Source: Haematobia irritans
Lineage: Eukaryota > Arthropoda > Insecta > Diptera > Muscidae
Direction: 5' to 3'
Length of the DNA stretch: 64,000 nucleotides
Assembly: GCF_050003625.1 (NCBI RefSeq)
Contig: NC_134401.1
Location: 70,832,632-70,896,631 of the forward strand
Positions 16,161-56,041 of this stretch are shown here, piece by piece; positions within the stretch are counted from its first letter, which is position 1, and each line of letters opens with the position of its first letter. The position numbers were made by a program, and so were the translations under genes. The notes beneath the pieces were generated by a model. It had not been told where the DNA came from. It searched no databases and was given only the letters and a program-made list of their open reading frames with translations.

Positions 16161-17460
16161 AACACTTTTTTTTTGTTTTTTTTTTTAATTTACACATTTA
16201 TATTTATACTATATTAAATTTTTATAATAAAACTTCGAAATGTGGGTTATAGTCATTAACAGTGCTTGATATAAACGAAATTGACTGATTTTTGGATAAA
16301 ATATTATTTTTTTATTGCAAAAAAAAAAAATTTGGTACAAAACTTTAAAATTTGGAAGGAATTCAAAAACTAACAAAAGAAGAACGTGGAGTCGAGTATA
16401 AACATACATAAATAATTTTATAATATAAATATAAATTTATTTAGGCGTGAGCAGTTTTTTACTAGCATTTAACACCATCGGTCTAAAATGCCTTTTATTT
16501 TTTTTTTTAATAATTCATTTTAAAGAAAATAAAATTTTTAAATTGTTTTAGCTGCAAAACTCGAACTTAATGCCCGCTTTTATATTTGAAGGTGTCCGTC
16601 AACTCCTCTTGGACTACTTATTAATAAAGAGGAACTAAACTTTGTTTTTATACATTTTACTGTGTAATTTTCACTATTTCCTTCTTATTTAATTTTACTG
16701 TCCCAACTCTAAAAAGAGTATAGTGCCCTTTCGTTATTTTTATGAAGACCCCTGATTTCTTTTAACGAACCAAGAAAAAAATTGTGCCCATAATGCCAAA
16801 ATGATAAACAAAACACATGTTCACACATACAGAAAATGCTGCTCTCAAGGCGAAAACACAGGCTTTTTTTCAAATGTCTATTCTCTTGGTTCCGAATGTC
16901 CATTCTCTTTATTCAAATTAAATAATATTTAAACTTAAGCATATCAAATTTTTGGCCTTATCATAAAACAGTTTTCTGAAACAACATACAAGCGGTTTCA
17001 CAGAAATTGTTCTCTTTTGATTCTTTCGCTGTGTTATGTTGATATCTTTTGTCAACTCTCCCGGTTTCCATCTCTATTTCTTTCTCTATACTCTCTCTGT
17101 CGCTTTGAATAAAATATCACATCATATGTATGTTTAGTCGAAATTTGTAAATTTATACATGCTTGCATTCACACATATGATTTTTATGAAACATTCATGC
17201 CCCAAACATAATATATTCTAACATATTAACATAGATGTCCCAGACATTTAGTGTTAGTTTAGGAACATTACATGTTTGCACTTAAATATATTGTGTTTTA
17301 AAATTGTGCCCGAAACACATTTTGTTTATATCGGAACATATGAAAAACATATTTTTCTAAGAGTGTATGTATCGCCCGATTTTCCCAAATTTGGCCACAA
17401 TACCCTTATTTATCAACCGATCTTACTCAAAGTTGGCTTAATGTAATCTTCTATAGCACT

Positions 17461-17812
17461 AGGTTAGATTTGGTTTGGTTAGGTGGCAGCCCGATGTATC
17501 AGGCTCAATTAGACTATTCAGTCCATTGTGATACCACATTGGTGAACTTCTCTCTTATCACTGAGTGCTGCCCGATTCCATGTTAAGCTCAATGCCAAGG
17601 GACCTCCTTTTTATAGCCGAGTCCGAACGGCGTTCCACCTTGCAGTGAAACCAAAATTAGAGAAGCTTTGAAACCATCAGAAATGTCACCAGCATTGCTG
17701 AGGTGGGATAATCCACCGCTGGAAAACTTTTTTGGTGTTCGGTCGAAGCAGGAATCGAAACCACGACCTTATGTATGCAAGGCGGGCATGCTAACCATTG
17801 CACCACGGTGGC
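17461..17812 (-). mobile_element. SINE, complete copy in the R repeat
   Basis: On the minus strand it has the full order head (GCCACCGTGGTGCAATGG), body and LINE-like 3' end with AACCT-type tail. TTCTATAGCACTA before it and TTCTATTCTAGCACTA after it are the target duplication (one side gained 3 bp). The R copy at 60240 shows the uninterrupted site. Confidence 0.88.
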
Positions 17813-26196: not shown

Positions 26197-29100
26197 GGCT
26201 GCATGCGCTGCCATAAAAGTTCTCGCGATGAAAGGGGACATGGACATAGTTCTTATTCAAGAACCATACGTTTATAGAAACAAAATAAGTGAATTAAGTA
26301 CTCCAGGGTTCAAACTATTGCAGTATACTGGTAATGATGTAAATCGAGCCTGTATAATTGCTAAAAACGAGCTTAGCTTGTTTCTGCTTCCTTCAATGTG
26401 CAATACAGACACTGTCGTTGCCAATTTAGAAATAGCCAAATGCAAATATTGGGTATCTTCGGTCTACATGGGACATGACAGGGAGATGCCTCCATGTGCC
26501 GTTAAGACCTTAGTTGAGGAGTCACTGAAAACAAAGACGAAACTAATTATGGGATGCGATGCGAATGCGCATCATAGTATATGGGGAAGTAGTGATACTA
26601 ATGCAAGAGGAGAGTCGCTAATGCGTACTAATCTGGTAGTCTGCAACAAGGGAGTTGCCCCAACCTTTGTCACTAAAAACAGGCAAGAGGTTTTGGACAT
26701 CACCTTGGCCTCGCAAGAAATGAATGAAATGATATCTGAGTGGCAGGTTTTAAGTGAACACAGCTTCTCAGATCATCGCTACATCAGTTTCAAAGTTGAT
26801 GTTCATACCACCAAGACCATATTTCCGCCAAATGTTAGGAAAGCTGACTGGAATAGGTATAGGGAATCGTTCAATATGATGATACTGGAAATAACAGAGA
26901 CAAATATGAGAAATGTGTAAGATATCGAACACGCAGTGGAGCGGATTACTAAGGCCTTCAACATTTCACTGAAAGCTGCATACCCTAGAGGGAAGCCAAG
27001 GGGGAAAAATCGATCACCATGTTGGTCTACGGAATTAAGTAATATGAGGAAATCCTGCAGGAAGCTCTTTAACAAGGCAAAGTCCACTAGAGCCCCTGAG
27101 GATTGGGACGCTTACAAGAAGAATCTGAGGGGATACAAGCGGGAACTGAGAAATGCTCAGCATAACTCTTGGAATGATTACTGCAACAGTATTGAGAATG
27201 CGTCCGAGGCTTCCAAACTGCGGAAGGTTTTAGCATCCACCAACTGCGCTCCAGGTCTCATCAAAACATCGGAGGGCAATTGGACAACGTCTAGAAATCA
27301 GACGGTAGAACCAGGTTCTGGCGGTGCCACAGTGGCTCAGCTGTCGTTTCCTATCGAGGAAATTGTATCGGAATCTAGAATAAGATGGGCGTTAAATAGC
27401 TTTGGACCATTCAAATCCCCCGGACCTGATGGAATTACTCCGGCGGAGTTACAAGCAGTGACTGACAAAATTATCCCCTGGTTGTCGGCGATATATAAAG
27501 GATCAACTTATCATATATCCCAGGAAAGTGGAGAGAAACAAAAGTCGTTTTCATACCTAAAGCGGGAAAAGCCTCTCACTCTAGGGCGGAGGATTTCCGA
27601 CCAATCAGCTTATCCTAATTCCTACTTACGACTCTGGAGAGGATGATAGATATTTATCTTAGAACTAGCATCGATTCAAGTTTGTTCTCGAAACGACAGC
27701 ATGCATACTCGAAGGGCAAGTCTACTGAGACCGCATTACATGAACTAGTCAGTTTTATTGAAAGCTCACTATCTGTCAAAGAATACACAATCGTGGCGTT
27801 TCTAGACATCGAAGGGGCGTTCAATAATGTCCATCAGAGCTCGATATTAAATGGACTGACAACTCTGAATGTTGATCCATGTATACTTAGGCTATTAGAC
27901 GAACTTCTAATGAAGAAACGTATTTCAGCCACACTAGGACAAGCAAACATACAAAGGTATGTGAACAGAGGCACTCCCCAAGGAGGAGTTCTATCACCTC
28001 TTCTTTGGAATGTTGCTATAAATAACCTTCTGGTTACCCTAGAAAAAGATGGGATAAAAGTGATGGCATACTCAGATGATGTGGCTCTAGCAGTCAGGGG
28101 AAATTTCCATCCACAATCAGAGATATTATTCAGAGGGTCCTCCGGATGACTGAGAAATGGGCGAAAGACAAAGACAGAACTAGTCATGTACTGCAAAGAT
28201 CGCAAAACTCCCACTGTTAGGCCCATTTCCTTAGGGGGTATTGAAATTCCCTTTGGTGAGTGTGCAAAATACCTTGGCGTTATTTTGGACAGGAAGCTGA
28301 ACTTTAAGCTTAATATTGAAGAAAGGGCGAGAAAAGCAACGGTAGCTTTGTACTCGTGCAAAAAGGCAATAGGAAAAATGTGGGGACTAAAACCAAAAAT
28401 TGTGCATTGGCTATACACGGCAGTGGTTAGACCTATAATGCTATATGGTGTTGTAGTCTGGTGGTCGGCACTTCACCAGCCAACAAGTTTAGACAGAGTT
28501 CAGAGTTCAGCGTTTGGCGTGTTTGTGTATCTCAGGTGCATTCAGCAAGACAGGAACAAATTCCCTTAATGTCATGCTGCATCTATTGCCTTTAGACATT
28601 TTAGCCAAGCAGTCAGCTACAACAACGGCTGTGCGGTTGCGCGAGCTATCGCTGTGGTCGGAAAAAAGTTACGGTCACAGTTCGGCCCTCAAAATAATGC
28701 CAGATGTGCCTAACGTAGTGGATTACACTTTGGCGAGTCCACTTTTCGACAAAAAGTTTGAGACAGTGAGGCGTGGTGCACCCAGATCCCGGGGAATAAA
28801 GAATATATAGATTTCTACACTGATGGCTCCAAATTGGATGGACAATTGGGTTTCGGAGTATATTCTAATGATCTGGAACTTCGAATAGCGAAAAGATTAC
28901 CTAATCACTGTAGTGTTTTTCAGGCTGAAATATTAGCAATAAAAGAGCTGGCGAATTGGCTGAGAAGTAATGTTTCAAAAAATGTGGGCATTAATATATA
29001 CTCAGACAGTCAACCTGCAATAAAATCCCTGGACTCTATGTTCCTCAACTCGAAAACTGCCATCGACTGTCGCAAATCTCTCAATGAGATGGCTGAGCAG

Positions 29101-29663
29101 TACAATAGTCACCTAATATGGGTGCCTGGCCATAGGAACATAACGGGGAACTGCGAAGCGGATGAGTTGGCAGTACAATAGTCACCTAATATGGGTGCCT
29201 GGCCATAGGAACATAACGGGGAACTGCGAAGCGGATGAGTTGGCAAGGCTAGGAACTTCCTTACATATTCCAGGGGAACTAGAATCTGTTGGTATGCCCC
29301 TGGCTACCTGCAAGCTCATACTGCGTGAGGCCCCATTTAAACTTAAACCGCACACTAGATATGCTAGTGTTCTCGGGACGTCAGATATCACTCCTGATAT
29401 CTGCTATAACGGGTCACTGCCTGATAGGTGATTTTGCAAAAACTATTGGCGCGAAGTATAATGACTATTGTATGAGCTGTCATGATGCGGAGGAAAAGGA
29501 ATCAATTAAACACCTCTTGTGTGAGTGTCCTGTATTTTGTGTAAACCGCACGCAACTGTTAGGAGCATATAGCTTCAGATTACTGGCGGATCTGGAAAAC
29601 GTTAACTTAAGCAGTCTGCTAATGTTTTTGGAACAATCTAATTGGTTCAACAAAGAAAAATAA
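26156..29663 (+). pseudogene. LINE ORF2 of L2: endonuclease, reverse transcriptase, RNase H (broken)
   Basis: The ATG at 26156 lies within the last 41 nt of ORF1 and opens MVLRILQINLHHC, the endonuclease N-terminus. LIQEPYV, GCDANAHHSIWG and SFSDHR follow. The RT has GTPQGGVLSPLLWN and, at the active site, YSDDVAL instead of YADDVAL. RNase H motifs are SDSQPAI, FQAEILAI and WVPGHRN. Breaks: stop near 26918, frameshifts near 27640, 28150, 28550 and 28780, and a 73-bp tandem duplication at 29097-29242. Confidence 0.85.
29097..29242 (+). repeat. 73-bp tandem duplication in LINE RNase H
   Basis: Two identical or near-identical 73-bp units start at 29097 and 29170 (GCAGTACAATAGTCACC). Each encodes HLIWVPGHRN and following residues. 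The extra unit shifts the frame. The same duplication is in unit B near 34872-35017, so it predates the large duplication. Confidence 0.9.
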
Positions 29664-29809
29664 TCAAGAAGGTTCAGCGGTTAAAACTAGAAGTGCCCAT
29701 ATGTAATAGGTACTTTTAGTTAATGTGGTATCACAATGGACTGAATAGTCTAAGTGAGCCTGAATCTTAATCTGGTTGCCACTTTAACCTAACCTAACCT
29801 AATTTAGAC

Positions 29810-31061
29810 CAGAGCTTCCCAAATGGTGGGGCGCCCCCCCTAGGGGGTCACCACGAGATTCTAGGGGGGGGGGGGCGCAGCGTCATTTTTGGTTGAGCAG
29901 GTTTTGTATCATTAAATTTGTTCACAGAAAAAAATTCCGTAGTTAAACTAACGCTAAATTTAACTTATTTTTATTGGAAAAAATCTATTTACATGTAGTT
30001 AAATTTTATTATTTTTATCCAAATTTTCTACAGCTAAATGAAATCTTACTTTTTTTTAGTATGTCTCAAATTTTCATGAATTAAACTTGAGTATAAAGTT
30101 CAATAACCGTAGACATAAGTTCAATATGAACTAAAACAAATTAACATTTTCGTACTATTCCCAAAAATAGTAAGAATGAACTACTACTCGTATATGGTTA
30201 AAATGGTCATGATTTAGCGCCAATGATTTTCTTCTTTAAAATTTAGTTCAATTTTCGTGCGTGGTAGTTCATTCTTCCTATAAAACAGTTCACTTTTTTC
30301 GGTATTAAAACAACACTAATTGTTAAGTTCAACAAAACATCAATAATAAAAACTACAAAAATGCGAAATGTTCATTTATAACCACAGTAAGAAAATAATA
30401 GAAGTTGCATGAAATTCTATAATTTGTTGTAGGTTTTCCATTATTAGTCGTTCACTTTATTTACAACGGCTAAATTTCTTGCTAAAATATCAGAACCAGT
30501 ACCGACTTTTGTATTCACACATTTTAAAAATTTTGAATCCATTTTCATCACTTTTAGACATAAAATCAAAATATCTGCCTTGCCTTCATGTTCAAACTGC
30601 CGTCATGTTGAAACAATTGCCAAATTTTCCACTAAAGCTGAGTACGATGTTCAGTTTTCAAGCTGAAAACCAGCTTATTTTCACGGTTACTTTTTTCAAT
30701 CAATTAATTTCGAAATATTAATTGGTTCGCAATCAATACATTGGATATTTTCCATCCATAATTTGAAGAGACTTGATAAAAATGTTATCATCTTCATATA
30801 TATTTTTGCACTTTTAATTTAGTGTTTTGGTGAAAAACACGAACATAGTACTCACCTGTGTTGATAAACTCTTTTATATTAATATACATAAACATTTTTA
30901 TTTTTAATTATTTAATTAGTTATTGTTAATCATATTTTCAGCTTTTGTTAATGTTTATTTCTGTTTGTTTGGGTAAACAAAATTTGTTTTAGGTTGTGGG
31001 GCGCAACGAAATTGATACATTTTTTAGGGGGGCGCGAATCAAATTGGGTTGGGAAGCTCTG
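29810..31061. mobile_element. hAT-like noncoding element H3 (unit A)
   Basis: The ends are CAGAGCTTCCCAAATGG and CAAATTGGGTTGGGAAGCTCTG-type inverses, each followed by a G/C-rich GGGGCGC block. Flanks ATTTAGAC and CACTAGAC share TAGAC and may be a mutated 8-bp duplication. No transposase frame is present in 1.25 kb. It landed directly after the L2 tail. Confidence 0.75.
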
Positions 31062-31687
31062 CACTAGACGATTAACCTTCTTCAATTCACTCCAATAATA
31101 TTAAATATTTTCAAGCAAGTCCTTGTACATTGGATAACAGCGTAGACTTTACAATAGGAAATAACAATTTGCAAGGAACACCGGTAATTCAAGATTGTCC
31201 TAGAAGGTCAGCCAGAGTGTGAAAATTTCCAAATTAGCTCAAGGACTATGTTCATTATTAACGAAGGAGGATGTTTCGGTACACTATGGATCTACTTGCC
31301 TATTATGCACTTAGCACGTTTGATTATAAATAGTAGGCTATTTCAGTTTCATTCTAGTAGGCTACGAAATATTCATTTTTTATGTATTCATTTTGAGTTA
31401 ATAAATTTTCTAGAATTGGCAGAATCGTTTTGATATAATATAACACATGGGAATAATGGTTCTGTTGATTAGGAACTGAATATTGTTTTTAAGGTTATTT
31501 GGGACGCTGAATCCAAATCTGCACTTGGTTTTTTCTATCAGCTCGACTTTTCGAGTTATACCGTTGTGTTCAAAATTAAGGCACTTCCGCTACATATATT
31601 GGAATATTACAATCGGTGCACAACTTTTGATTTTGTTCACGATTTAGTGAGTTGACATAAATTGCGATTCCCATACAAAAATAATAT
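31062..31687 (+). other. Z remnant, right part (unit A)
   Basis: The frame continuing Z runs about 31090-31221 (NNIKYFQASPCTLDNSVDF, ending RRSARV, stop). Downstream, TACACTATGGATCTACTTG at 31270 repeats a word found at 24519. The block 31455-31625 recurs around 42520-42551 and 50957-51030. Z is therefore a dispersed repeat of unknown type. Confidence 0.45.
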
Positions 31688-32705
31688 TGTTACGTTTTTA
31701 TATTGTGGCGTGTTTAATAACCCGTTAAAAAAACACAGTTCTTTTCAAATAACGACAATCTACAATTTATTTGCATAACTGATAGGTTTCACTTATTTGC
31801 TCTACGATCACTTTTGGCTTACGACTGACTTTACAGCTCCCTCCGCCAGGGGCTTATATACCGTGATTTGACGATTTCGAAAATTCTGGATAGTCTGGCT
31901 TACCATTGCCACCGTGGTGCAATGGTTAGCATGCCCGCCTTGCATACACAAGGTTGTGGGTTCGATTCCTGCTACGACCGAACACCAAAAAGTTTTTCAG
32001 CGGTGGATTATCCCACCTCAGTAATGCTGGTGACATTTCTGAGGGTTTCAAAGCTTCTCTAAGTGGTTTCACTGGAATGTGGAACGTCGTTCGGACTCGG
32101 CTATAAAAAGGAGGTCCCTTGTCATTGAGCTTAACATGGAATCGGGCAGCACTCAGTGATAAGAGAGAAGTTCACCACTGTGGTATCACAATGGACTGAA
32201 TAGTCTAAGTGAGCCTGATACATCGGGCTGCCACATAACCTAACCTAACCTAACCTACAACCATCTAGAACTATCTAGATACAATTTATCTAACAGCCAT
32301 ATTCAACTGGTTATCTTCATTGCCTACAACCATCTAGTGTCCGTCAGATGTCGCACATGAATAGCTGATTATGTTCATAGTCTTGCCTACAATTATGTAA
32401 TCATTTTGTCGTTTCTGTTCATAGTCTTGCCCCCAATTATCTAGAACAATCACTTTGTCGTTTCTGCCTATCTCGTAATTTAGCTGACAGAGGGTTGTGC
32501 TCATATTATTACAACAATAACAAAACAAAAGAGGTTACTACAATTACTTTGAAACTAAGAACACAAAAGATTTTTAGGAAAATACTAGAAAATAAAGAAA
32601 TGATTTTGAATGTGATGACGTAATTTGACCGTTACAATTTGAAATTTTAAATTAACGGAAACTAATTTGAATAAACTTAAATCTAGAAATATCAAATTCG
32701 TAACA
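31688..32705 (-). mobile_element. Gypsy-type LTR with SINE insert (unit A)
   Basis: It begins TGTTACG and ends CGTAACA and matches the 606-bp LTR at 41879-42484 once the SINE at 31908-32256 is removed. On the minus strand a TATATAAG box sits near 31853-31860. Only this LTR and the 3' part of pol are present in unit A. Confidence 0.9.
31908..32256 (+). mobile_element. tRNA-derived SINE, best-preserved copy
   Basis: It has a tRNA-like head with A box TGGTGCAATGGTTAGC and B box GGTTCGATTCC, then a unique body (31980-32165). The 3' ~70 bp reads TATCACAATGGACTGAATAG, TCTAAGTGAGCCTGA and so on, nearly identical to the 3' end of the LOA-like LINE, with tail (AACCT)4. A T5 run lies just after the head. 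It is noncoding. Mobilisation by the LINE is inferred from the shared tail. Confidence 0.92.
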
Positions 32706-32834
32706 CTGCCTTCCGCTTAAGCCTGTTCGTCCCGAACAGGCACAGAACCCGTTCCGTATGGAGCCAAACGTTCCAGGTGAACGACTTTCATCTTTAACCT
32801 TGGGCTGTCGTCCATTTGAATGCGGTATACAACA

Positions 32835-33589
32835 TCATTGATCTTCTTGATGACTTATATGGGACTTCCCACTGTGTTTGTAGTTTAGGGTTGCGGGTTG
32901 AATAGCGGGTTGTCCTTCTCTAAAGCCCTCAGTGTTCGCTGCACGATCATATCTCGCCTTCATCCTGTTGCTGACCATTTTTATTTTGTTTCGCACTGAT
33001 TCGTGAATTTTACCAAATGTGTTTGGTATGTCGTTACTGGTTTCTTCCATGGCGAGCTCATTGGGTGTATCGCCGAATATCAAATCTCCGGGCAACTTCA
33101 ATTCCGTTCCGAATAGGACCTTGGCCGGTGTTCGTGACGCAAAAACTTTGGTATATGCTCGTCCCAGTCTCGTTGGCCGTTATCCACCACCTTTCGAAGA
33201 TGTTCTTCCAGAGTGCGATTAAACCTTTCTACTATGCCATCAGACTGTGGATGCAATGGCGTAGTCCTTGTTTTCTTGATACCTAGGGAGTCACACATCT
33301 CTTGGAATATGGCCGTTTCAAACTTTCTTTCTTGGTCTGAGTGTATCTCGGACGGCACACCGTAGCGACATATCCAGTTCTTGTCGACTACGTCTACAAT
33401 CGTCTTCGCCTCTTGGTTTGGAATGACATAAACTTCTGGCCATTTGCTGAAGTAATCCACGACCACAAGGACATATCGGTTTCCAGAATCATTTACTGGG
33501 AAAGGCCCCGCAACGTCCATTGCTATTCTTTCAAATGGCGCTCCTGGCCTATACTCTTGCATAAGACCTGGCCTATACTCTTGCATAAG
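32835..33589 (-). pseudogene. Gypsy pol, integrase core and C-terminus (unit A)
   Basis: On the minus strand it reads the integrase catalytic core (MDVAGPFPVN, VVDYFSKWPEV, TTPLHPQSDGIVERFNRTLEEH) and then, after a frameshift and deletion near 33110, the C-terminal segment LPGDLIFGDTPNEL. The first residues are duplicated (MQEYRPGLMQEYRPG) because of the 23-bp repeat at the duplication junction. Nothing upstream of the core is present. Confidence 0.88.
33543..33589. repeat. 23-bp direct repeat at the duplication junction
   Basis: The 23 bases at 33543-33565 are repeated at 33567-33589, separated by one A. The second unit abuts LINE sequence (GGGCGTTCAATAATG) at 33590. Unit B has the 23 bases only once, at its corresponding place. 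Confidence 0.92.
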
Positions 33590-35576
33590 GGGCGTTCAAT
33601 AATGTCCATCAGAGCTCGATATTAAATGGACTGACAACTCTGAATGTTGATCCATGTATACTTAGGCTATTAGACGAACTTCTAATGAAGAAACGTATTT
33701 CAGCCACACTAGGACAAGCAAACATACAAAGGTATGTGAACAGAGGCACTCCCCAAGGAGGAGTTCTATCACCTCTTCTTTGGAATGTTGCTATAAATAA
33801 CCTTCTGGTTACCCTAGAAAAAGATGGGATAAAAGTGATGGCATACTCAGATGATGTGGCTCTAGCAGTCAGGGGAAATTTCCATCTACAATCAGAGATA
33901 TTATTCAGAGGGTCCTCCGGATGACTGAGAAATGGGCGAAAGACAAAGACAGAACTAGTCATGTACTGCAAAGATCGCAAAACTCCCACTGTTAGGCCCA
34001 TTTCCTTAGGGGGTATTGAAATTCCCTTTGGTGAGTGTGCAAAATACCTTGGCGTTATTTTGGACAGGAAGCTGAACTTTAAGCTTAATATTGAAGAAAG
34101 GGCGAGAAAAGCAACGGTAGCTTTGTACTCGTGCAAAAAGGCAATAGGAAAAATGTGGGGACTAAAACCAAAAATTGTGCATTGGCTATACACGGCAGTG
34201 GTTAGACCTATAATGCTATATGGTGTTCTAGTCTGGTGGTCGGCACTTCACCAGCCAACAAGTTTAGACAGAGTTCAGAGTTCAGCGTTTGGCGTGTTTG
34301 TGTATCTCAGGTGCATTCAGCAAGACAGGAACAAATTCCCTTAATGTCATGCTGCATCTATTGCCTTTAGACATTTTAGGCAAGCAGTCAGCTACAACAA
34401 CGGCTGTGCGGTTGCGCGAGCTATCGCTGTGGTCGGAAAAAAGTTACGGTCACAGTTCGGCCCTCAAAATAATGCCAGATGTGCCTAACGTAGTGGATTA
34501 CACTTTGGCGAGTCCACTTTTCGACAAAAAGTTTGAGACAGTGAGGCGTGGTGCACCCAGATCCCGGGGAATAAAGAATATATAGATTTCTACACTGATG
34601 GCTCCAAATTGGATGGACAATTGGGTTTCGGAGTATATTCTAATGATCTGGAACTTCGAATAGCGAAAAGATTACCTAATCACTGTAGTGTTTTTCAGGC
34701 TGAAATATTAGCAATAAAAGAGCTGGCGAATTGGCTGAGAAGTAATGTTTCAAAAAATGTGGGCATTAATATATACTCAGACAGTCAACCTGCAATAAAA
34801 TCCCTGGACTCTATGTTCCTCAACTCGAAAACTGCCATCGACTGCCGCAAATCTCTCAATGAGATGGCTGAGCAGTACAATAGTCACCTAATATGGGTGC
34901 CTGGCCATAGGAACATAACGGGGAACTGCGAAGCGGATGAGTTGGCAGTACAATAGTCACCTAATATGGGTGCCTGGCCATAGGAACATAACGGGGAACT
35001 GCGAAGCGGATGAGTTGGCAAGGCTAGGAACTACCTTACATATTCCAGGGGAACTAGAATCTGTTGGTATGCCCCTGGCTACCTGCAAGCTCATACTGCG
35101 TGAGGCCCCATTTAAACTTAAACCGCACACTAGATATGCTAGTGTTCTCGGGACGTCAGATATCACTCCTGATATCTGCTATAACGGGTCACTGCCTGAT
35201 AGGTGATTTTGCAAAAACTATTGGCGCGAAGTATAATGACTATTGTATGAGCTGTCATGATGCGGAGGAAAAGGAATCAATTAAACACCTCTTGTGTGAG
35301 TGTCCTGTATTTTGTGTAAACCGCACGCAACTGTTAGGAGCATATAGCTTCAGATTACTGGCGGATCTGGAAAACGTTAACTTAAGCAGTCTGCTAATGT
35401 TTTTGGAACAATCTAATTGGTTCAACAAAGAAAAATAATCAAGAAGGTTCAGCGGTTAAAACTAGAAGTGCCCATATGTAATAGGTACTTTTAGTTAATG
35501 TGGTATCACAATGGACTGAATAGTCTAAGTGAGCCTGAATCTTAATCTGGTTGCCACTTTAACCTAACCTAACCTA
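33590..35576 (+). mobile_element. LOA-like LINE 3' half, copy L3 (part of unit B)
   Basis: This is the duplicate of L2 from the RT domain to the tail. It was not inserted by retrotransposition: its left edge is the duplication junction. The frame has the same breaks as L2 (YSDD active site, 73-bp duplication). It encodes nothing intact. Confidence 0.9.
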
Positions 35577-35584
35577 ATTTAGAC

Positions 35585-36836
35585 CAGAGCTTCCCAAATG
35601 GTGGGGCGCCCCCCCTAGGGGGTCACCACGAGATTCTAGGGGGGGGGGGGCGCAGCGTCATTTTTGGTTGAGCAGGTTTTGTATCATTAAATTTGTTCAC
35701 AGAAAAAAATTCCGTAGTTAAACTAACGCTAAATTTAACTTATTTTTATTGGAAAAAATCTATTTACTTGTAGTTAAATTTTATTATTTTTATCCAAATT
35801 TTCTACAGCTAAATGAAATCTTACTTTTTTTTAGTATGTCTCAAATTTTCATGAATTAAACTTGAGTATAAAGTTCAATAACCGTAGACATAAGTTCAAT
35901 ATGAACTAAAACAAATTAACATTTTCGTACTATTCCCAAAAATAGTAAGAATGAACTACTACTCGTATATGGTTAAAATGGTCATGATTTAGCGCCAATG
36001 ATTTTCTTCTTTAAAATTTAGTTCAATTTTCGTGCGTGGTAGTTCATTCTTCCTATAAAACAGTTCACTTTTTTCGGTATTAAAACAACACTAATTGTTA
36101 AGTTCAACAAAACATCAATAATAAAAACTACAAAAATGCGAAATGTTCATTTATAACCACAGTAAGAAAATAATAGAAGTTGCATGAAATTCTATAATTT
36201 GTTGTAGGTTTTCCATTATTAGTCGTTCACTTTATTTACAACGGCTAAATTTCTTGCTAAAATATCAGAACCAGTACCGACTTTTGTATTCACACATTTT
36301 AAAAATTTTGAATCCATTTTCATCACTTTTAGACATAAAATCAAAATATCTGCCTTGCCTTCATGTTCAAACTGCCGTCATGTTGAAACAATTGCCAAAT
36401 TTTCCACTAAAGCTGAGTACGATGTTCAGTTTTCAAGCTGAAAACCAGCTTATTTTCACGGTTACTTTTTTCAATCAATTAATTTCGAAATATTAATTGG
36501 TTCGCAATCAATACATTGGATATTTTCCATCCATAATTTGAACAGACTTGATAAAAATGTTATCATCTTCATATATATTTTTGCACTTTTAATTTAGTGT
36601 TTTGGTGAAAAACACGAACATAGTACTCACCTGTGTTGATAAACTCTTTTATATTAATATACATAAACATTTTTATTTTTAATTATTTAATTAGTTATTG
36701 TTAATCATATTTTCAGCTTTTGTTAATGTTTATTTCTGTTTGTTTGGGTAAACAAAATTTGTTTTAGGTTGTGGGGCGCAACGAAATTGATACATTTTTT
36801 AGGGGGGCGCGAATCAAATTGGGTTGGGAAGCTCTG
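35585..36836. mobile_element. hAT-like noncoding element H3 (unit B)
   Basis: Duplicate of 29810-31061 with the same CAGAGCTTCCC/GGGAAGCTCTG ends and only a couple of base changes. Confidence 0.75.
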
Positions 36837-37458
36837 CACTAGACGATTAACCTTCTTCAATTCACTCCAATAATATTAAATATTTTCAAGCAAGTCCTTG
36901 TACATTGGATAACAGCGTAGACTTTACAATAGGAAATAACAATTTGCAAGGAACACCGGTAATTCAAGATTGTCCTAGAAGGTCAGCCAGAGTGTGAAAA
37001 TTTCCAAATTAGCTCAAGGACTATGTTCATTATTAACGAAGGAGGATGTTTCGGTACACTATGGATCTACTTGCCTATTATGCACTTAGCACGTTTGATT
37101 ATAGTAGGCTATTTCAGTTTCATTCTAGTAGGCTACGAAATATTCATTATTTATGTATTCATTTTGAGTTAATAAATTTTCTAGAATTGGCAGAATCGTT
37201 TTGATATAATATAACACATGGGAATAATGGTTCTGTTGATTAGGAACTGAATATTGTTTTTAAGGTTATTTGGGACGCTGAATCCAAATCTGCACTTGGT
37301 TTTTTCTATCAGCTCGACTTTTCGAGTTATACCGTTGTGTTCAAAATTAAGGCACTTCCGCTACATATATTGGAATATTACAATCGGTGCACAACTTTTG
37401 ATTTTGTTCACGATTTAGTGAGTTGACATAAATTGCGATTCCCATACAAAAATAATAT
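36837..37458 (+). other. Z remnant, right part (unit B)
   Basis: Duplicate of 31062-31687. Compared with unit A it lacks 4 bp near the paired AGTAGGCTA words. It ends with ATAT, the left target duplication of the gypsy element. Confidence 0.5.
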
Positions 37459-37678
37459 TGTTACGTTTTTATATTGTGGCGTGTTTAATAACCCGTTAAA
37501 AAAACACAGTTCTTTTCAAATAACGACAATCTACAATTTATTTGCATAACTGATAGGTTTCACTTATTTGCTCTACGATCACTTTTGGCTTACGACTGAC
37601 TTTACAGCTCCCTCCGCCAGGGGCTTATATACCGTGATTTGACGATTTCGAAAATTCTGGATAGTCTGGCTTACCATT

Positions 37679-38268
37679 GCCACCGTGGTGCAATGGTTAG
37701 CATGCCCGCCTTGCATACACAAGGTTGTGGGTTCGATTCCTGCTACGACCGAACACCAAAAAGTTTTTCAGCGGTGGATTATCCCACCTCAGTAATGCTG
37801 GTGACATTTCTGAGGGTTTCAAAGCTTCTCTAAGTGGTTTGACTGGAATGTGGAACGCCGTTCGGACTCGGCTATAAAAAGGAGGTCCCTTGTCATTGAG
37901 CTTAATGCGCTTTACAGACAATCAGTTATTCCGGACGGAATGTCGGTGTTTGTAAAGAATCTTACAGTGTGTCGGTTCGATACGACTTGTCGGCGATGAC
38001 TAAATAATCGGTAAATGTGTTATCGATCCCATAAACATGTAGCAGTATCGATTATGCCTTCGGACTTAACTTATAATGTGCACAATATATGGGATATGTT
38101 CGACACGAGCACTGTCGTCCGGAATAGCTGATAGTCTGTAAAGCGCATAACATGGAATCGGGCAGCACTCAGTGATAAGAGAGAAGTTCATCACTGTGGT
38201 ATCACAATGGACTGAATAGTCTAAGTGAGCCTGATGCATCGGGCTGCCACATAACCTAACCTAACCTA
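37679..38268 (+). mobile_element. SINE in the LTR, split by MITE M2
   Basis: Same SINE insertion as at 31908, duplicated with unit B. SINE sequence lies at 37679-37905 and 38151-38268. The break is after GAGCTTAA, within the body. Confidence 0.9.
37906..38147. mobile_element. MITE family M, copy M2 (242 bp)
   Basis: It reads TGCGCTTTACAGAC to GTCTGTAAAGCGCA with TAA on both sides (37903-37905, 38148-38150). Unit A has GAGCTTAACATGG uninterrupted at the homologous place, proving the insertion and its 3-bp duplication. Noncoding. Confidence 0.95.
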
Positions 38269-38845
38269 CAACCATCTAGAACTATTTAGATACAATTTAT
38301 CTAACAGCCATATTCAACTGGTTATCTTCATTGCCTACAACCATCTAGTGTCCGTCAGATGTCGCACATGAATAGCTGATTATGTTCATAGTCTTGCCTA
38401 CAATTATGTAATCATTTTGTCGTTTCTGTTCATAGTCTTGCCCCCAATTATCTAGAACAATCACTTTGTCGTTTCTGCCTATCTCGTAATTTAGCTGACA
38501 GAGGGTTGTGCTCATATTATTACAACAATAACAAAACAAAAGAGGTTACTACAATTACTTTGAAACTAAGAACACAAAAGATTTTTAGGAAAATACTAGA
38601 AAATAAAGAAATGATTTTGAATGTGATGACGTAATTTGACCGTTACAATTTGAAATTTTAAATTAACGGAAACTAATTTGAATAAACTTAAATCTAGAAA
38701 TATCAAATTCGTAACACTGCCTTCCGCTTAAGCCTGTTCGTCCCGAACAGGCACAGAACCCGTTCCGTATGGAGCCAAACGTTCCAGGTGAACGACTTTC
38801 ATCTTTAACCTTGGGCTGTCGTCCATTTGAATGCGGTATACAACA

Positions 38846-39586
38846 TCATTGATCTTCTTGATGACTTATATGGGACTTCCCACTGTGTTTGTAGTTTAGG
38901 GTTGCGGGTTGAATAGCGGGTTGTCCTTCTCTAAAGCCCTCAGTGTTCGCTGCACGATCATATCTCGCCTTCATCCTGTTGCTGACCATTTTTATTTTGT
39001 TTCGCACTGATTCGTGAATTTTACCAAATGTGTTTGGTATGTCGTTACTGGTTTCTTCCATGGCGAGCTCATTGGGTGTATCGCCGAATATCAAATCTCC
39101 GGGCAACTTCAATTCCGTTCCGAATAGGACCTTGGCCGGTGTTCGTGACGCAAAAACTTTGGTATATGCTCGTCCCAGTCTCGTTGGCCGTTATCCACCA
39201 CCTTTCGAAGATGTTCTTCCAGAGTGCGATTAAACCTTTCTACTATGCCATCAGACTGTGGATGCAATGGCGTAGTCCTTGTTTTCTTGATACCTAGGGA
39301 GTCACACATCTCTTGGAATATGGCCGTTTCAAACTTTCTTTCTTGGTCTGAGTGTATCTCGGACGGCACACCGTAGCGACATATCCAGTTCTTGTCGACT
39401 ACGTCTACAATCGTCTTCGCCTCTTGGTTTGGAATGACATAAACTTCTGGCCATTTGCTGAAGTAATCCACGACCACAAGGACATATCGGTTTCCAGAAT
39501 CATTTACTGGGAAAGGCCCCGCAACGTCCATTGCTATTCTTTCAAATGGCGCTCCTGGCCTATACTCTTGCATAAGACCTCTACTT
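38846..39586 (-). pseudogene. Gypsy integrase core and C-terminus (unit B)
   Basis: Motifs are as in unit A: MDVAGPFPVN, VDYFSKWPEV, the DD(35)E core with PLHPQSDGIVERFNRTLEEH, then a frameshift and a deletion near 39120, and LPGDLIFGDTPNEL. The N-terminal zinc-binding part lies beyond the repeat insertion at 40761-40870 (NCEKCIKAKGPRR). Confidence 0.88.
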
Positions 39587-42484: not shown

Positions 42485-42551
42485 ATATATTCTAATGTTT
42501 AAATGTAGTAAGTTAGCTTTTTATGGTTCTGTTGATTAAGAACTGAATATT

Positions 42552-42875
42552 AGGTTAGGTTAGAATAGGTGGCAGCCCGATGTATCAGGCTCACTTAGAC
42601 TATTCAGTCCATTGTGGTACCACATTGGTGAACTTCTCTCTTATCACTGATTGCTGCCCGATTCCATGTTAAGCTCAATGACAAGGAACCTCCTTTTTAT
42701 AGCCGAATCCGAACGGCGTTCCACATTGCAGTTAAACCACTTAGAGAAGCTTTGAAACCCTCAGAAATGTCACCAGCATTACAGAGGTGGGATAATCCAC
42801 CGCTGAAAAACTTTTTGGTATTCGGTCGAAGCAGGAATCGAACCCACGACCTTGTATATGCAAAGCGGGCATGCT
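42552..42875 (-). mobile_element. SINE, head-truncated copy
   Basis: On the minus strand the B-box region (GGGTTCGATTCC), body and LINE-like 3' end are present. The A box is lost: homology stops within GCATGC. It is inserted in Z sequence; ACTGAATATT precedes it. Confidence 0.85.
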
Positions 42876-52091: not shown

Positions 52092-52452
52092 TCAAAGTAA
52101 AGCTTGACCGGCTTCGGTCTGTTAGTTCTAAAAGCATATTGTAATGGACTGAATTACATTTTATTGATGTTGTTTATGCATTTGCTTAATAAAATATGCT
52201 AATATTGAACTAAAACACTCCAAATTTTCTTTAAGTACAAACATCATTTTTGGCTTAAGCCAAAAAAATCCGCTTCGGTCGAACTTTAACGCAAATCCTT
52301 ATCATTTAAACAGGTTTTTTTCTTTTATTTAACAAAAAAACATTTTCAGTATTAATTTTCAGTGAAGGTGAGCGACAAACTGGAAAAACGTATACGTCTC
52401 TCAGACGTAGATTAGCTGCCTAGGGTTAAACAGCGAAAAATATTTGTAAATA
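52092..52452. other. Unassigned DNA
   Basis: AT-rich spacer between MITE C3 and the mariner. Nothing recognised. Confidence 0.5.
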
Positions 52453-52605
52453 AAGGATGATACGGTCAAAATTTGGTCAATATAAACTTGACGTATTTCT
52501 TTCAATTTTGCATTTAAAAAACCTGAACACCCCTCATTTTGAAGGTGTATGTGTGTAGAATGTTGCTCCTATTTTGATTTTGGAATTCACTCTTCAGTTG
52601 TCAAA

Positions 52606-54183
52606 ATGCCGTCCAAGCAAGAAGAGCAGCGTATCAAAATTTTGCTCGCGCATCGCGAAAATCCGAGCTACTCGCACGCAAAGCTGGCAAAATCGCTAAA
52701 AGTTGCCAAATCAACCGTTACAAATGTAATTAAAGTGTTTGGGGAACGTTTGTCGACAGCCAGGAAGTCTGGATCGGGGGGAAATCGAAAACCGGAAGCC
52801 GGTGAGACGACAAAGAGAGTTGCCGGTAGTTCAAGCGAAACCCCAACCTCTCTCTCCGAGATGCCGCAAATAAGCTGGGTGTATCGTCTACAACCGTGCA
52901 TCGAGCCAAAAAACGAGCCGGACTATCGACTTACAAGAAGGTAGTGACTCAAAATCGCGATGATAAACAAAATACGACGGCCAAAGCGCGATCCCGGAGG
53001 CTGTACACGACGATGCTGACGAAGTTTGACTGCGTGGTAATGGACGACGAAACCTACGTCAAAGCCGACTACAAGCAGCTTCCGGGACAGGAGTTTTATA
53101 CGGCAAAAGGAAGGGGAAAGGTAGCAGATATTTTCAAGCACATAAAACTGTCAAAGATCGCAAAGAAATATCTGGTTTGGCAAGCCATCTGTACCTGTGG
53201 CTTGAAAAGCAGCATTTTCATAGCTTCCGGGACTGTCAACAAAGAAATTTACGTGAAAGATTCATTTTTAAAGCGGATAGCATTGCTTGTAGTTTGCAGT
53301 TTGAAGGGTAAGGAGTTCCAAAGACGAATAGTGTATATGAAGAATTGCCTTTCGGATACTAGTGATCGTATCATAGGATGTATTATTTTCAGTCCTCTGT
53401 TCGAACGGGCAAACTGGATACGGCTATAGAGGTTTGGTGGGCTTTTAGTATAAACTATTTTATGAAGTTGAACCAGAAATTTTACTTTCAACAAGTTTTC
53501 GAATTTAATATTGAATATTTTATATGCATACTCTGATATTCGGTCATAGCGTCGCTTGTTGAAAATATATCGAGCAATGTTGTTGTAGGCAATTTTTAAC
53601 TTTTGGGAGTCTGAATAGTTTGAGCTTGCAAAGATTTCACATCCGTACAAAAGTTTTGGAATTAGAAATGTTTTTGCTAACAACATTCGAATAGGTTGCG
53701 GCGTACTTGTCCGAACAGCCCATAGATTTCGTAGCATTCCGTGAACATTTCCGACTGCGCTAAGAATATGATCTGACCATGTAAGTTTTGAATTAAATAT
53801 TATTCCCAAATTCTTATGCGTGTTTGAATAAACGTCTGCTGCCTTTCCTGAAGAAACACGGTTGTTCCGTACTGTTTTGGCCGGATTTGGCATCTTGCCA
53901 TTACGGTAAAAAGGCCATGGAGTGGTACGCCGCCAACAACGTGCAGGTGGATCCCAAGGACAAGAACCCTCCCAACACGCCAGAGCTCCGCCCAATTGAG
54001 AAATACTGGGCTATTGTCAAGCGGAACCTAAAGAAGACCAAAAAAACTGCTAAGGACGAGCAGCGGTTAAAGGCAAACTGGCTTTCTGCGGCGAAGAAGG
54101 TGGACAAGGTGGCTGTACAAAATCTGATGGCAGGTGTCAAGCGTGAGGCCCGGCAATTCGGATTTGGAAAAGCGAAAGCCTAA
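52606..54183 (+). pseudogene. Mariner transposase, DD37E type (broken)
   Basis: The ATG at 52606 opens MPSKQEEQRIKILLAHREN, then an N-terminal helix-turn-helix (HAKLAKSLKVAKSTVTNVI). A single-base loss near 52830 shifts the frame before LRDAANKLGVSSTTVHRAKK, the second DNA-binding motif. Catalytic residues: first D in VMDDETY (53040), second D in FWPDLASCHYGK (53890), E in ELRPIEKYW with 37 residues between. The C-terminus ends GFGKAKA, stop at 54183. The frame is interrupted after YVKE by the patch at 53261-53820. Confidence 0.93.
53261..53820 (-). repeat. 560-bp internal LINE fragment inside the mariner transposase
   Basis: It matches 54656-55215 at a fixed offset of 1395 bp with no indel and few substitutions. 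It starts and ends inside LINE coding sequence, with no 5' end, tail or target duplication. Around it the transposase frame is otherwise continuous (GTGAAAGA | TGTTTGAATAAACG). Confidence 0.93.
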
Positions 54184-54376
54184 CTGAAATTTTTCCTGAA
54201 TTTTAAACTAATTGAACTTGAAAAAGAAATTTAATTTGATTTTTTAAATAAACGATTTCATCCATTTACACGCGTTTTCCCTTGACCAAATTTTGACCGT
54301 ATCACCCTTTACTCTGTTGGATAAGCTACACTTGTAGTTTAGTCAATGCATGGTTTTAAGCTGAAATCATGATGCC

Positions 54377-56041
54377 TGCGTTTATTTTATTTTATTTTAT
54401 TTTATTTAATAATTTGTAAAACTAGTACAACAAGATGATACATCTTATAAATTACAGTACTAGATTCATGTTTTATCAGAAATAATGTGTAAATGTGTTG
54501 GTGTAGGAGGAAACAAATAAATATTAATATAAATATGAATATGAAAATTAATTAATATAACATTTTTCTTTTTAATAATTGAATATTTTTATAAGTTAGC
54601 AATATTTTATATTGTGAACAAGATTGTTAAACAGTTAAGAAAAGATTTTAAATAATTCATTTTTAAAGCGGATAGCATTGCTTGTAGTTTGCAGTTTGAA
54701 GGGTAAGGAGTTCCAAAGACGAATAGTGTATATGAAGAATTGCCTTTCGGATACTAGTGATCGTATCATAGGATGTATTATTTTCAGTCCTCTGTTCGAA
54801 CGGGCAAACTGGATACAGCTATAGAGGTTTGGTGGGCTTTTATTATAAACTATTTTATGAAGTTGAACCAGACATTTTACTTTCAACAAGTTTTCGAATT
54901 TAATATTGAATATTTTATATGCATACTCTGATATTCGGTCATAGCGTCGCTTGTTGAAAATATATCGAGCAATGTTGTTGTAGGCAATTTTTAATTTTTG
55001 GGAGTCTGAATAGTTTGAGCTTGCAAAGATTTCACATCCGTACAAAAGTTTTGGAATTAGAAATGTTTTTGCTAACAACATTCGAATAGGTTGCGGCGTA
55101 CTTGTCCGAACAGCCCATAGATTTCGTAGCATTCCGTGAACATTTCCGACTGCGCTAAGAATATGATCTGACCATGTAAGTTTTGAATTAAATATTATTC
55201 CCAAATTCTTATGCGATTGAACAAAATCAATTGCAACATTTTCAATGCATAGTTTAGTAGAGATACTTTCAATTTCCACTGTTTTATTTTTTGCAATAGC
55301 CAAATATTTTGTTTTTGAGGGATTTAAATGGAGACCATTATTACGAGCCCAATTTTGTATGAGATTTAGGTCTGAGTTTATATCATTTATGCATGATTCA
55401 ATAGTGTGTATATGGGCACTTGTGTAAACTTGTACGTCATCAGCATACATATGTAAGTTACATGTTTGTGGTATTTCCGTCAAATCATTGATATAAATAG
55501 TGAAAAGAATTGGACCAAGGATTGATCCCTGAGGAACTCCTCGGGATATTTTATTAGGTATAGATCGTTTGTTGTTTAAAAACACTATCTGTGAGCGAGA
55601 TTTAAGATATGATGATATTAGCTTGCAAGCGTTTTCAGAAAAAAAGAATAATTTCTCAAGTTTGGATAGCAGTATTTTATGGTCAACCGTGTCGAACGCT
55701 TTGCTATGGTCGAGAAGTACTAGAAATGATACCATTTTTTCATCAAGTCGTTGGCGTATAGTTTCTATAACTTCGGTGAGCGCTGGAATACAGTTCCTTT
55801 GCTGCCGGAATCCAGATTGTTTTTCAGATAGAAGTTTGAAATTGTCCAGGTATTTTATTATCTGCTCATTCATTATGCGCTCTAAAACCTTTGAAAGAAA
55901 AGGTAATATTGCAATTGGTCTGAACTCATTTTTAGCTTTAGGAAGTGGTATTATTTTCGCGACTTTCCATTCAGTTGGGAAGGTAGACTTAGTTAGGCAA
56001 GTATTAAGTAAATATGTAAAAAGATGATGGGCACGAAGTAA
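54377..56041 (-). mobile_element. Third LINE type (CR1/Jockey-like), 5'-truncated
   Basis: On the minus strand it runs from RT to a 3' UTR and a (TAAAA)n tail at 54377-54408. Homology begins at ~56041, so the endonuclease is missing. It is the probable donor of the 560-bp patch in the mariner. A target duplication is not evident. Confidence 0.85.
54635..56035 (-). pseudogene. Reverse transcriptase of the CR1/Jockey-like LINE
   Basis: A long uninterrupted frame covers PTEWKVAKIIPLPKA, FRPIAILPFLSKVLERI, SGFRQQRN, LLDHSKAFDTVDHK, GVPQGSILGPILFTIYINDL, MYADDVQVY and the C-terminal domain to FKNELFKIFS. All main RT motifs are present and the active-site YADD is intact. It lacks an endonuclease and, as usual in these clades, an RNase H. 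Without its 5' half it is non-functional, though its open frame suggests recent insertion. Confidence 0.85.

Follow-up and report, generated by a model that had tools for sequence, protein, structure and literature searches.

We analyzed a 64,000-nucleotide stretch of the genome of Haematobia irritans, the horn fly, a muscid (the window; contig C5, 70832632–70896631), in which a mariner transposon is interrupted by a piece of a LINE. The mariner is bounded by terminal inverted repeats of 28 bp (left, 52453–52480, plus strand; right, 54282–54309, minus strand) that pair at 27 of 28 positions, with a TA target-site duplication outside both (52451–52452 and 54310–54311, plus strand). Without its insert the element is 1298 bp long. 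The transposase is read from the plus strand in two parts. The 5′ part (52606–53260) has a one-base deletion near 52829 that shifts the frame, and the 3′ part (53820–54183) holds the second D and the E of a DD37E transposase, separated by 37 residues, within a DDE_3 match (E 2.4e-5) that falls under Pfam's cut-off score. Once the two parts are joined, the frame crosses the site as IYVKE-CLNKRL, in register with the relatives P0001–P0004 (P0004 being a partial protein); the intact relative P0001 reads IYVKECLNKRL at the interruption and is 96% identical to the joined part from 52830 on. The earlier note on this DNA had described an otherwise collinear DD37E transposase, which holds for the spacing of 37 and for the frame that rejoins in register, and fails at the frameshift near 52829. 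No Rfam family matched in the window at the gathering threshold.

By its features, as distinct from a clade placement against DD37E/TRT and L18, the window mariner is like the DD37E/Mosquito (MS) group of Tc1/mariner elements described in the available part of PMC10379824. It shares with that group the DD37E signature, the TA duplication, a length of ∼1.3 kb and a transposase of ∼340 aa (in its relatives), and its 28-bp inverted repeats fall within the reported 19–51 bp. The main text of PMC10379824, as available, has no mention of Haematobia or of words beginning with "Musc." Viral, prokaryote contig and phage collections yielded no relatives of the window mariner.

The sequence that interrupts the transposase recurs a short way downstream. 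Positions 53260–53820 correspond to 54655–55215 (an offset of 1395) over 561 bp, with four substitutions (at 53422, 53448, 53478, and 53600) and no indels, and beyond the limits of this block the similarity on the diagonal ends. Donor and target both have the A that opens the block and the G that closes it, which leaves a net insert of 559 bp (53261–53819; hereafter, the patch). The earlier note had equated 53261–53820 with 54656–55215 without indels, which is correct to within one base, though with the four substitutions. The patch is a piece of LINE ORF with its sense on the minus strand, from the C-terminal side of the reverse transcriptase ORF. No mariner bases were lost at the insertion site. 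Inspecting both junctions for microhomology, as had been suggested, returned 1 bp at each end; because this is at chance level (the expectation is ∼0.44 per junction), it is uninformative, and we rejected it as support for any mechanism.

The nearby LINE copy (54381–56022, minus strand; RVT_1, E 1.5e-35) was delimited by comparison with the genomic copies L010–L015 and is 5′-truncated relative to L012, L013, and L015. Its 3′ tail occupies ∼54381–54415 (minus strand), seen on the plus strand as TTTTA-type repeats. The presumed donor stretch within it (54655–55215, minus strand) has the length and orientation of the patch and differs from it at four positions. The limits of the patch, at 54656 and 55214 in LINE coordinates, fall inside the ORF region, short of the tail. 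As the earlier note had claimed, the patch has no LINE ends, no tail and no target duplication, and it thus lacks the tailed 3′ end by which a target-primed LINE insertion is recognized. The absent 3′ end and tail are stronger points than the absent target duplication, which is weak evidence because the local LINE has no clear one either; a search for it found nothing beyond a 6-bp word.

We searched the assembly (1.173 Gb, 181 contigs) for other copies of this mariner and scored 40 among 182 first-look candidates, namely, the window copy and 39 others (L002–L008 and L039–L070). In all 39 a single alignment crosses the site with no insert, and 38 of them have a G at the junction column, confirming the empty site that had been predicted. 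The left patch junction (allowing three or fewer mismatches) occurs once in the whole genome, in the window, compared with zero occurrences of a reversed control. A search with the patch itself gave 43 matches, with 40 candidates scored of 150. Thirty loci were fetched, and mariner sequence was present at only two (L009 and L014), both of which are this locus; the other 28 fetched loci (L010–L013 and L015–L038) had no mariner sequence. At the protein level, the junction ORF had 74 matches, none recognizably chimeric, and alignments starting in its mariner-antisense part appear to be LINE matches that were loosely extended. That part alone, compared with 293 proteins, had one match, no better than E 7.3.

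These results bear on whether the patch is an old component of a mariner subfamily, which the earlier note had said would follow from finding it in many mariner copies at other loci. The 39 empty copies and the single left junction show the opposite pattern, no recognizable chimera appeared among the 74 protein matches, and we found no point in favor of such an origin. We regard it as next to impossible.

The history of the host element can be followed through a sister copy, L003, which has the same one-base deletion. It differs from the window mariner by two substitutions and two deletions (21 and 22 bp), and in the flanking sequence the two loci are alike over no more than a 33-bp stretch at 82%. 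The element at 52453–54309 and L003, although at unrelated sites, thus have in common, besides the frameshift, nine substitutions by which they depart from the majority. From these common changes, a transposase-dead copy behind the pair seems to have recently moved in trans. The shared frameshift likewise indicates that the window mariner was probably already dead when it was mobilized.

The identity of the donor is less clear-cut. We polarized the changes against the nucleotide sequences of other copies in this genome, replacing an amino-acid reading by eye against LINEs of ∼60% identity. Four distant copies (L010–L013) are mutually identical over the 561 bp, and private changes number three in the patch, one in the local copy (T at 54843), and one in L015. 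The private T of the local copy is absent from the patch, which differs from the four distant copies by three substitutions and from the local copy by four. A column-by-column comparison with 15 LINE copies found the patch's states at 53422, 53478, and 53600 in none of them (L024 is without the last site). Taken by itself, the sequence slightly disfavors the neighbor, as assembled, as the donor. Nearness, in contrast, argues strongly for it: Under random scatter, the chance of finding within ∼2 kb one of the six youngest full-span copies (a count that includes the local one) is 2e-5, and that of finding one of all 150 first-look LINE candidates is 5e-4. It is on proximity only that we infer the neighboring LINE to be the template. 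Sequence and proximity can be reconciled if the changes followed the copying or if the template was another allele of the local LINE. The earlier proposal of a donor 1.4 kb away in the same orientation therefore stands insofar as such a LINE is present, and is weakened by the better match of the four distant copies (three vs. four substitutions).

Substitution loads were 3/559 for the patch, 5/1622 for the local LINE outside its tail, and 0–3/1298 for the mariner. The mariner count depends on two letters that none of the other 39 copies has, both of them within a segment missing from L003, and on one further difference from L003 that is found also in nine of the 38 remaining copies. For mariner counts of 0, 1, 2, and 3, homogeneity of the loads gave p = 0.048, 0.18, 0.41, and 0.61, and the comparison of patch with mariner gave p = 0.027, 0.084, 0.16, and 0.26. 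The three loads are thus not significantly different unless the mariner count is 0, in which case the patch has too many substitutions, a point against the explanation favored below. Also against it, a faithful recent copy of the local LINE as assembled would have required both sequences to change afterward, or a different allele to serve as template.

A second capture is found in another of the 39 copies (L068, on contig C3), which reads as mariner 6–1183, a 531-bp retroelement-like insert (L068:1014–1544; C3:34201213–34201743), and then mariner 1094–1298. The insert has a full-length match in the same orientation 5.6 kb away (L071:2533–3075; C3:34195032–34195574), at 96% identity, with nine substitutions and 12 indel bases in the alignment as read by eye. 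Among the 40 matches scored of 1590 candidates this was the only close one, the next best reaching 83% over part of the insert. Part of this donor resembles RNase H (E 0.00043, under Pfam's cut-off score) and the other piece matches no family; the insert is probably a piece of a retroelement too. Microhomology is 3 bp (CAA) at the right junction and none at the left. On either side of the insert stands the same 91 bp of mariner sequence, without a single difference. Such a duplication suggests template switching in which the strand came back to a homologous copy, 91 bp upstream of where it had left; had a loose fragment been captured, mariner sequence would be duplicated only after a break with a stagger of ∼91 nt. 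The donor is far better defined here than in the window.

Our survey of internal changes in the 39 copies covered the larger ones (insertions of at least about 50 bp), and several of these were not counted as captures. The internal insertion of L067 resembles, by eye, a small inverted-repeat element; L039 has ∼2.07 kb inserted with an 8-bp mariner overlap; L055 has a 74-bp internal tandem duplication; and L065 holds a 93-bp dispersed repeat with a 95.7% copy ∼700 bp away, to which other copies are better matches. Two copies, L058 and L059, are without left ends, and extra flanking sequence showed no further mariner at the former and an adjoining inverted copy at the latter.

Some further repeats were noted along the way. 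A second partial mariner copy, inverted, lies close by at L042, L045, and L059/L075. The ∼93-bp dispersed repeat, which has GGTTA-type units at one end, is found many times in the window (including 17460–17553, 32164–32259, and 42550–42639) and once inside L065. Elsewhere in the window, 27812–32134 and 33587–37905 form a 4.3-kb direct repeat at 99.7% identity, either a recent duplication or an assembly feature, and 32129–33569 and 38145–39580 are 99.4% alike.

The patch is a real repair scar, ordinary in kind but unusually clean. The site is empty in the other copies examined, the left junction is single, LINE ends and tail are missing, a LINE lies nearby, and a second mariner holds an analogous insert. 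We put the probability at about three in four that the window insert is a templated insertion in cis, a gap filled by template switching from the local LINE. The transposase-dead mariner would have broken, or a fork would have stalled, within the transposase ORF at 53260/53261. Repair synthesis would then have switched to the same-orientation LINE 1.4 kb downstream, ∼560 nt would have been copied from it, and the copied strand would have been rejoined to the far side of the break with no mariner bases lost. In this sequence of steps the break, its cause, the role of the local LINE as template, and the pathway of the polymerase are reconstructed. The earlier note had proposed templated break repair, and an end-less LINE piece at a clean break and the capture at L068 both agree with it, whereas the break and the pathway remain on the side of conjecture. 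Its suggestion of an abortive excision is less favored, since the mariner has kept all of its bases and was broken internally; repair driven by excision is the less likely course.

Template switching need not lead to an exact return with 0 bp lost. The structure of the patch also fits capture by end joining, and end joining of a newly copied strand would give it as well. The patch sequence does not separate local DNA from RNA or from other LINE copies as the source. One such route is endonuclease-independent retrotransposition, or capture of cDNA or RNA, in which a reverse-transcribed LINE fragment plugs the break with no local DNA donor. The patch is the sequence of L010–L013 except for three private changes, without the private change of the local copy, and its lack of a tail, of a target duplication and of both LINE ends fits the class 2 insertions of PMC5110952, as far as that source is available. 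Such a route would leave the proximity of the LINE (2e-5 to 5e-4) unexplained unless the same RNP event produced both, and the case of L068, with its best match in local DNA and its duplicated mariner sequence, speaks against it; we consider it unlikely. We rate somewhat lower still the possibility that end joining captured a DNA fragment from another young LINE copy, with the nearby LINE a coincidence. Its advantages are a match to the four distant copies that is better by a single substitution and clean, lossless junctions that resemble end joining, to be set against a coincidence with a chance of between 2e-5 (six young copies) and 5e-4 (150 candidates) and against the absence of the patch states at 53422, 53478, and 53600 from all 15 LINE copies compared (L024 lacking the last).

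Short-range direct repeats are a frequent place for misassembly, and the patch and the LINE form such a repeat, which raises the question of a local misassembly or chimera. Yet four substitutions, three of them private to the patch, exclude a simple duplication of the same reads, the insert occupies an exact empty site, and L068 offers a similar, more diverged event; an artefact is very improbable. The second, independent capture makes local templated repair the best mechanism, and for L068 and the window together gap filling in cis by template switching is the best reading.

The arrangement is close to that of the single-copy animal Pack-TIRs that, in the available part of PMC8277862, are ascribed to gap filling independent of transposition. 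They too are TIR elements that contain foreign DNA copied from the vicinity, often from <5 kb away, with short microhomology and little loss of the transposon, in an element that predates the capture. Of the animal Pack-TIRs, 56.9% have their parental copy inside a distance of 15 kb, which for the majority of these shrinks to 5 kb; the median microhomology is 2 bp; and gaps have a median of 4.6% of the TE. The window copy likewise holds foreign sequence between two retained TIRs, with a LINE 1.4 kb away (inside the 15-kb limit for a cis donor, if it was the donor) and no mariner bases lost as against a small gap. It differs in its cargo, which is a LINE ORF piece where Pack-TIRs require non-TE sequence, and in its parent, which must be a unique top match and is here outscored by four distant copies; L068 does have a unique parent, among the matches scored. 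The same source argues along similar lines against excision-driven repair for most single-copy animal Pack-TIRs. A literature search of limited coverage for "Pack-TIR" and "mariner" together found no match, which says little, as PMC8277862 itself has Pack-Tigger1, called TcMariner. Class 2 templated insertions, in the available part of PMC5110952, resemble the patch in having no target duplication, no poly(A) tract and end-joining-like junctions; they are attributed to distant sources, often via RNA, whereas here a source lies 1.4 kb away.

This kind of repair scar is already known, and we present the patch as an instructive case. It gains value from a second copy of the same family with an independent local capture and a better-defined donor. 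Together they show, within a single insect genome and with clean structures, how a DNA transposon gains foreign internal sequence, and they contrast in that one shows zero loss and the other a 91-bp duplication suggesting a return onto a homologous template. Two of the 40 scored copies (5%) hold pieces of retrotransposon ORF (a probable one at L068) of ∼0.53–0.56 kb, and each piece has a full-length match downstream of it, at 1.4 kb and 5.6 kb, respectively, with the orientation unchanged. With a family this young and many similar copies that lack an insert, the capture rate and the donor distances could be measured genome-wide and in populations. It is a speculative idea, and on balance a doubtful one, that copies of this young mariner family are recurrent local traps for repair-copied DNA. 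If it were true, breakage inside the element (e.g., by transposase nicking dead copies in trans) would make capture frequent, and frequent capture could seed new composite elements.
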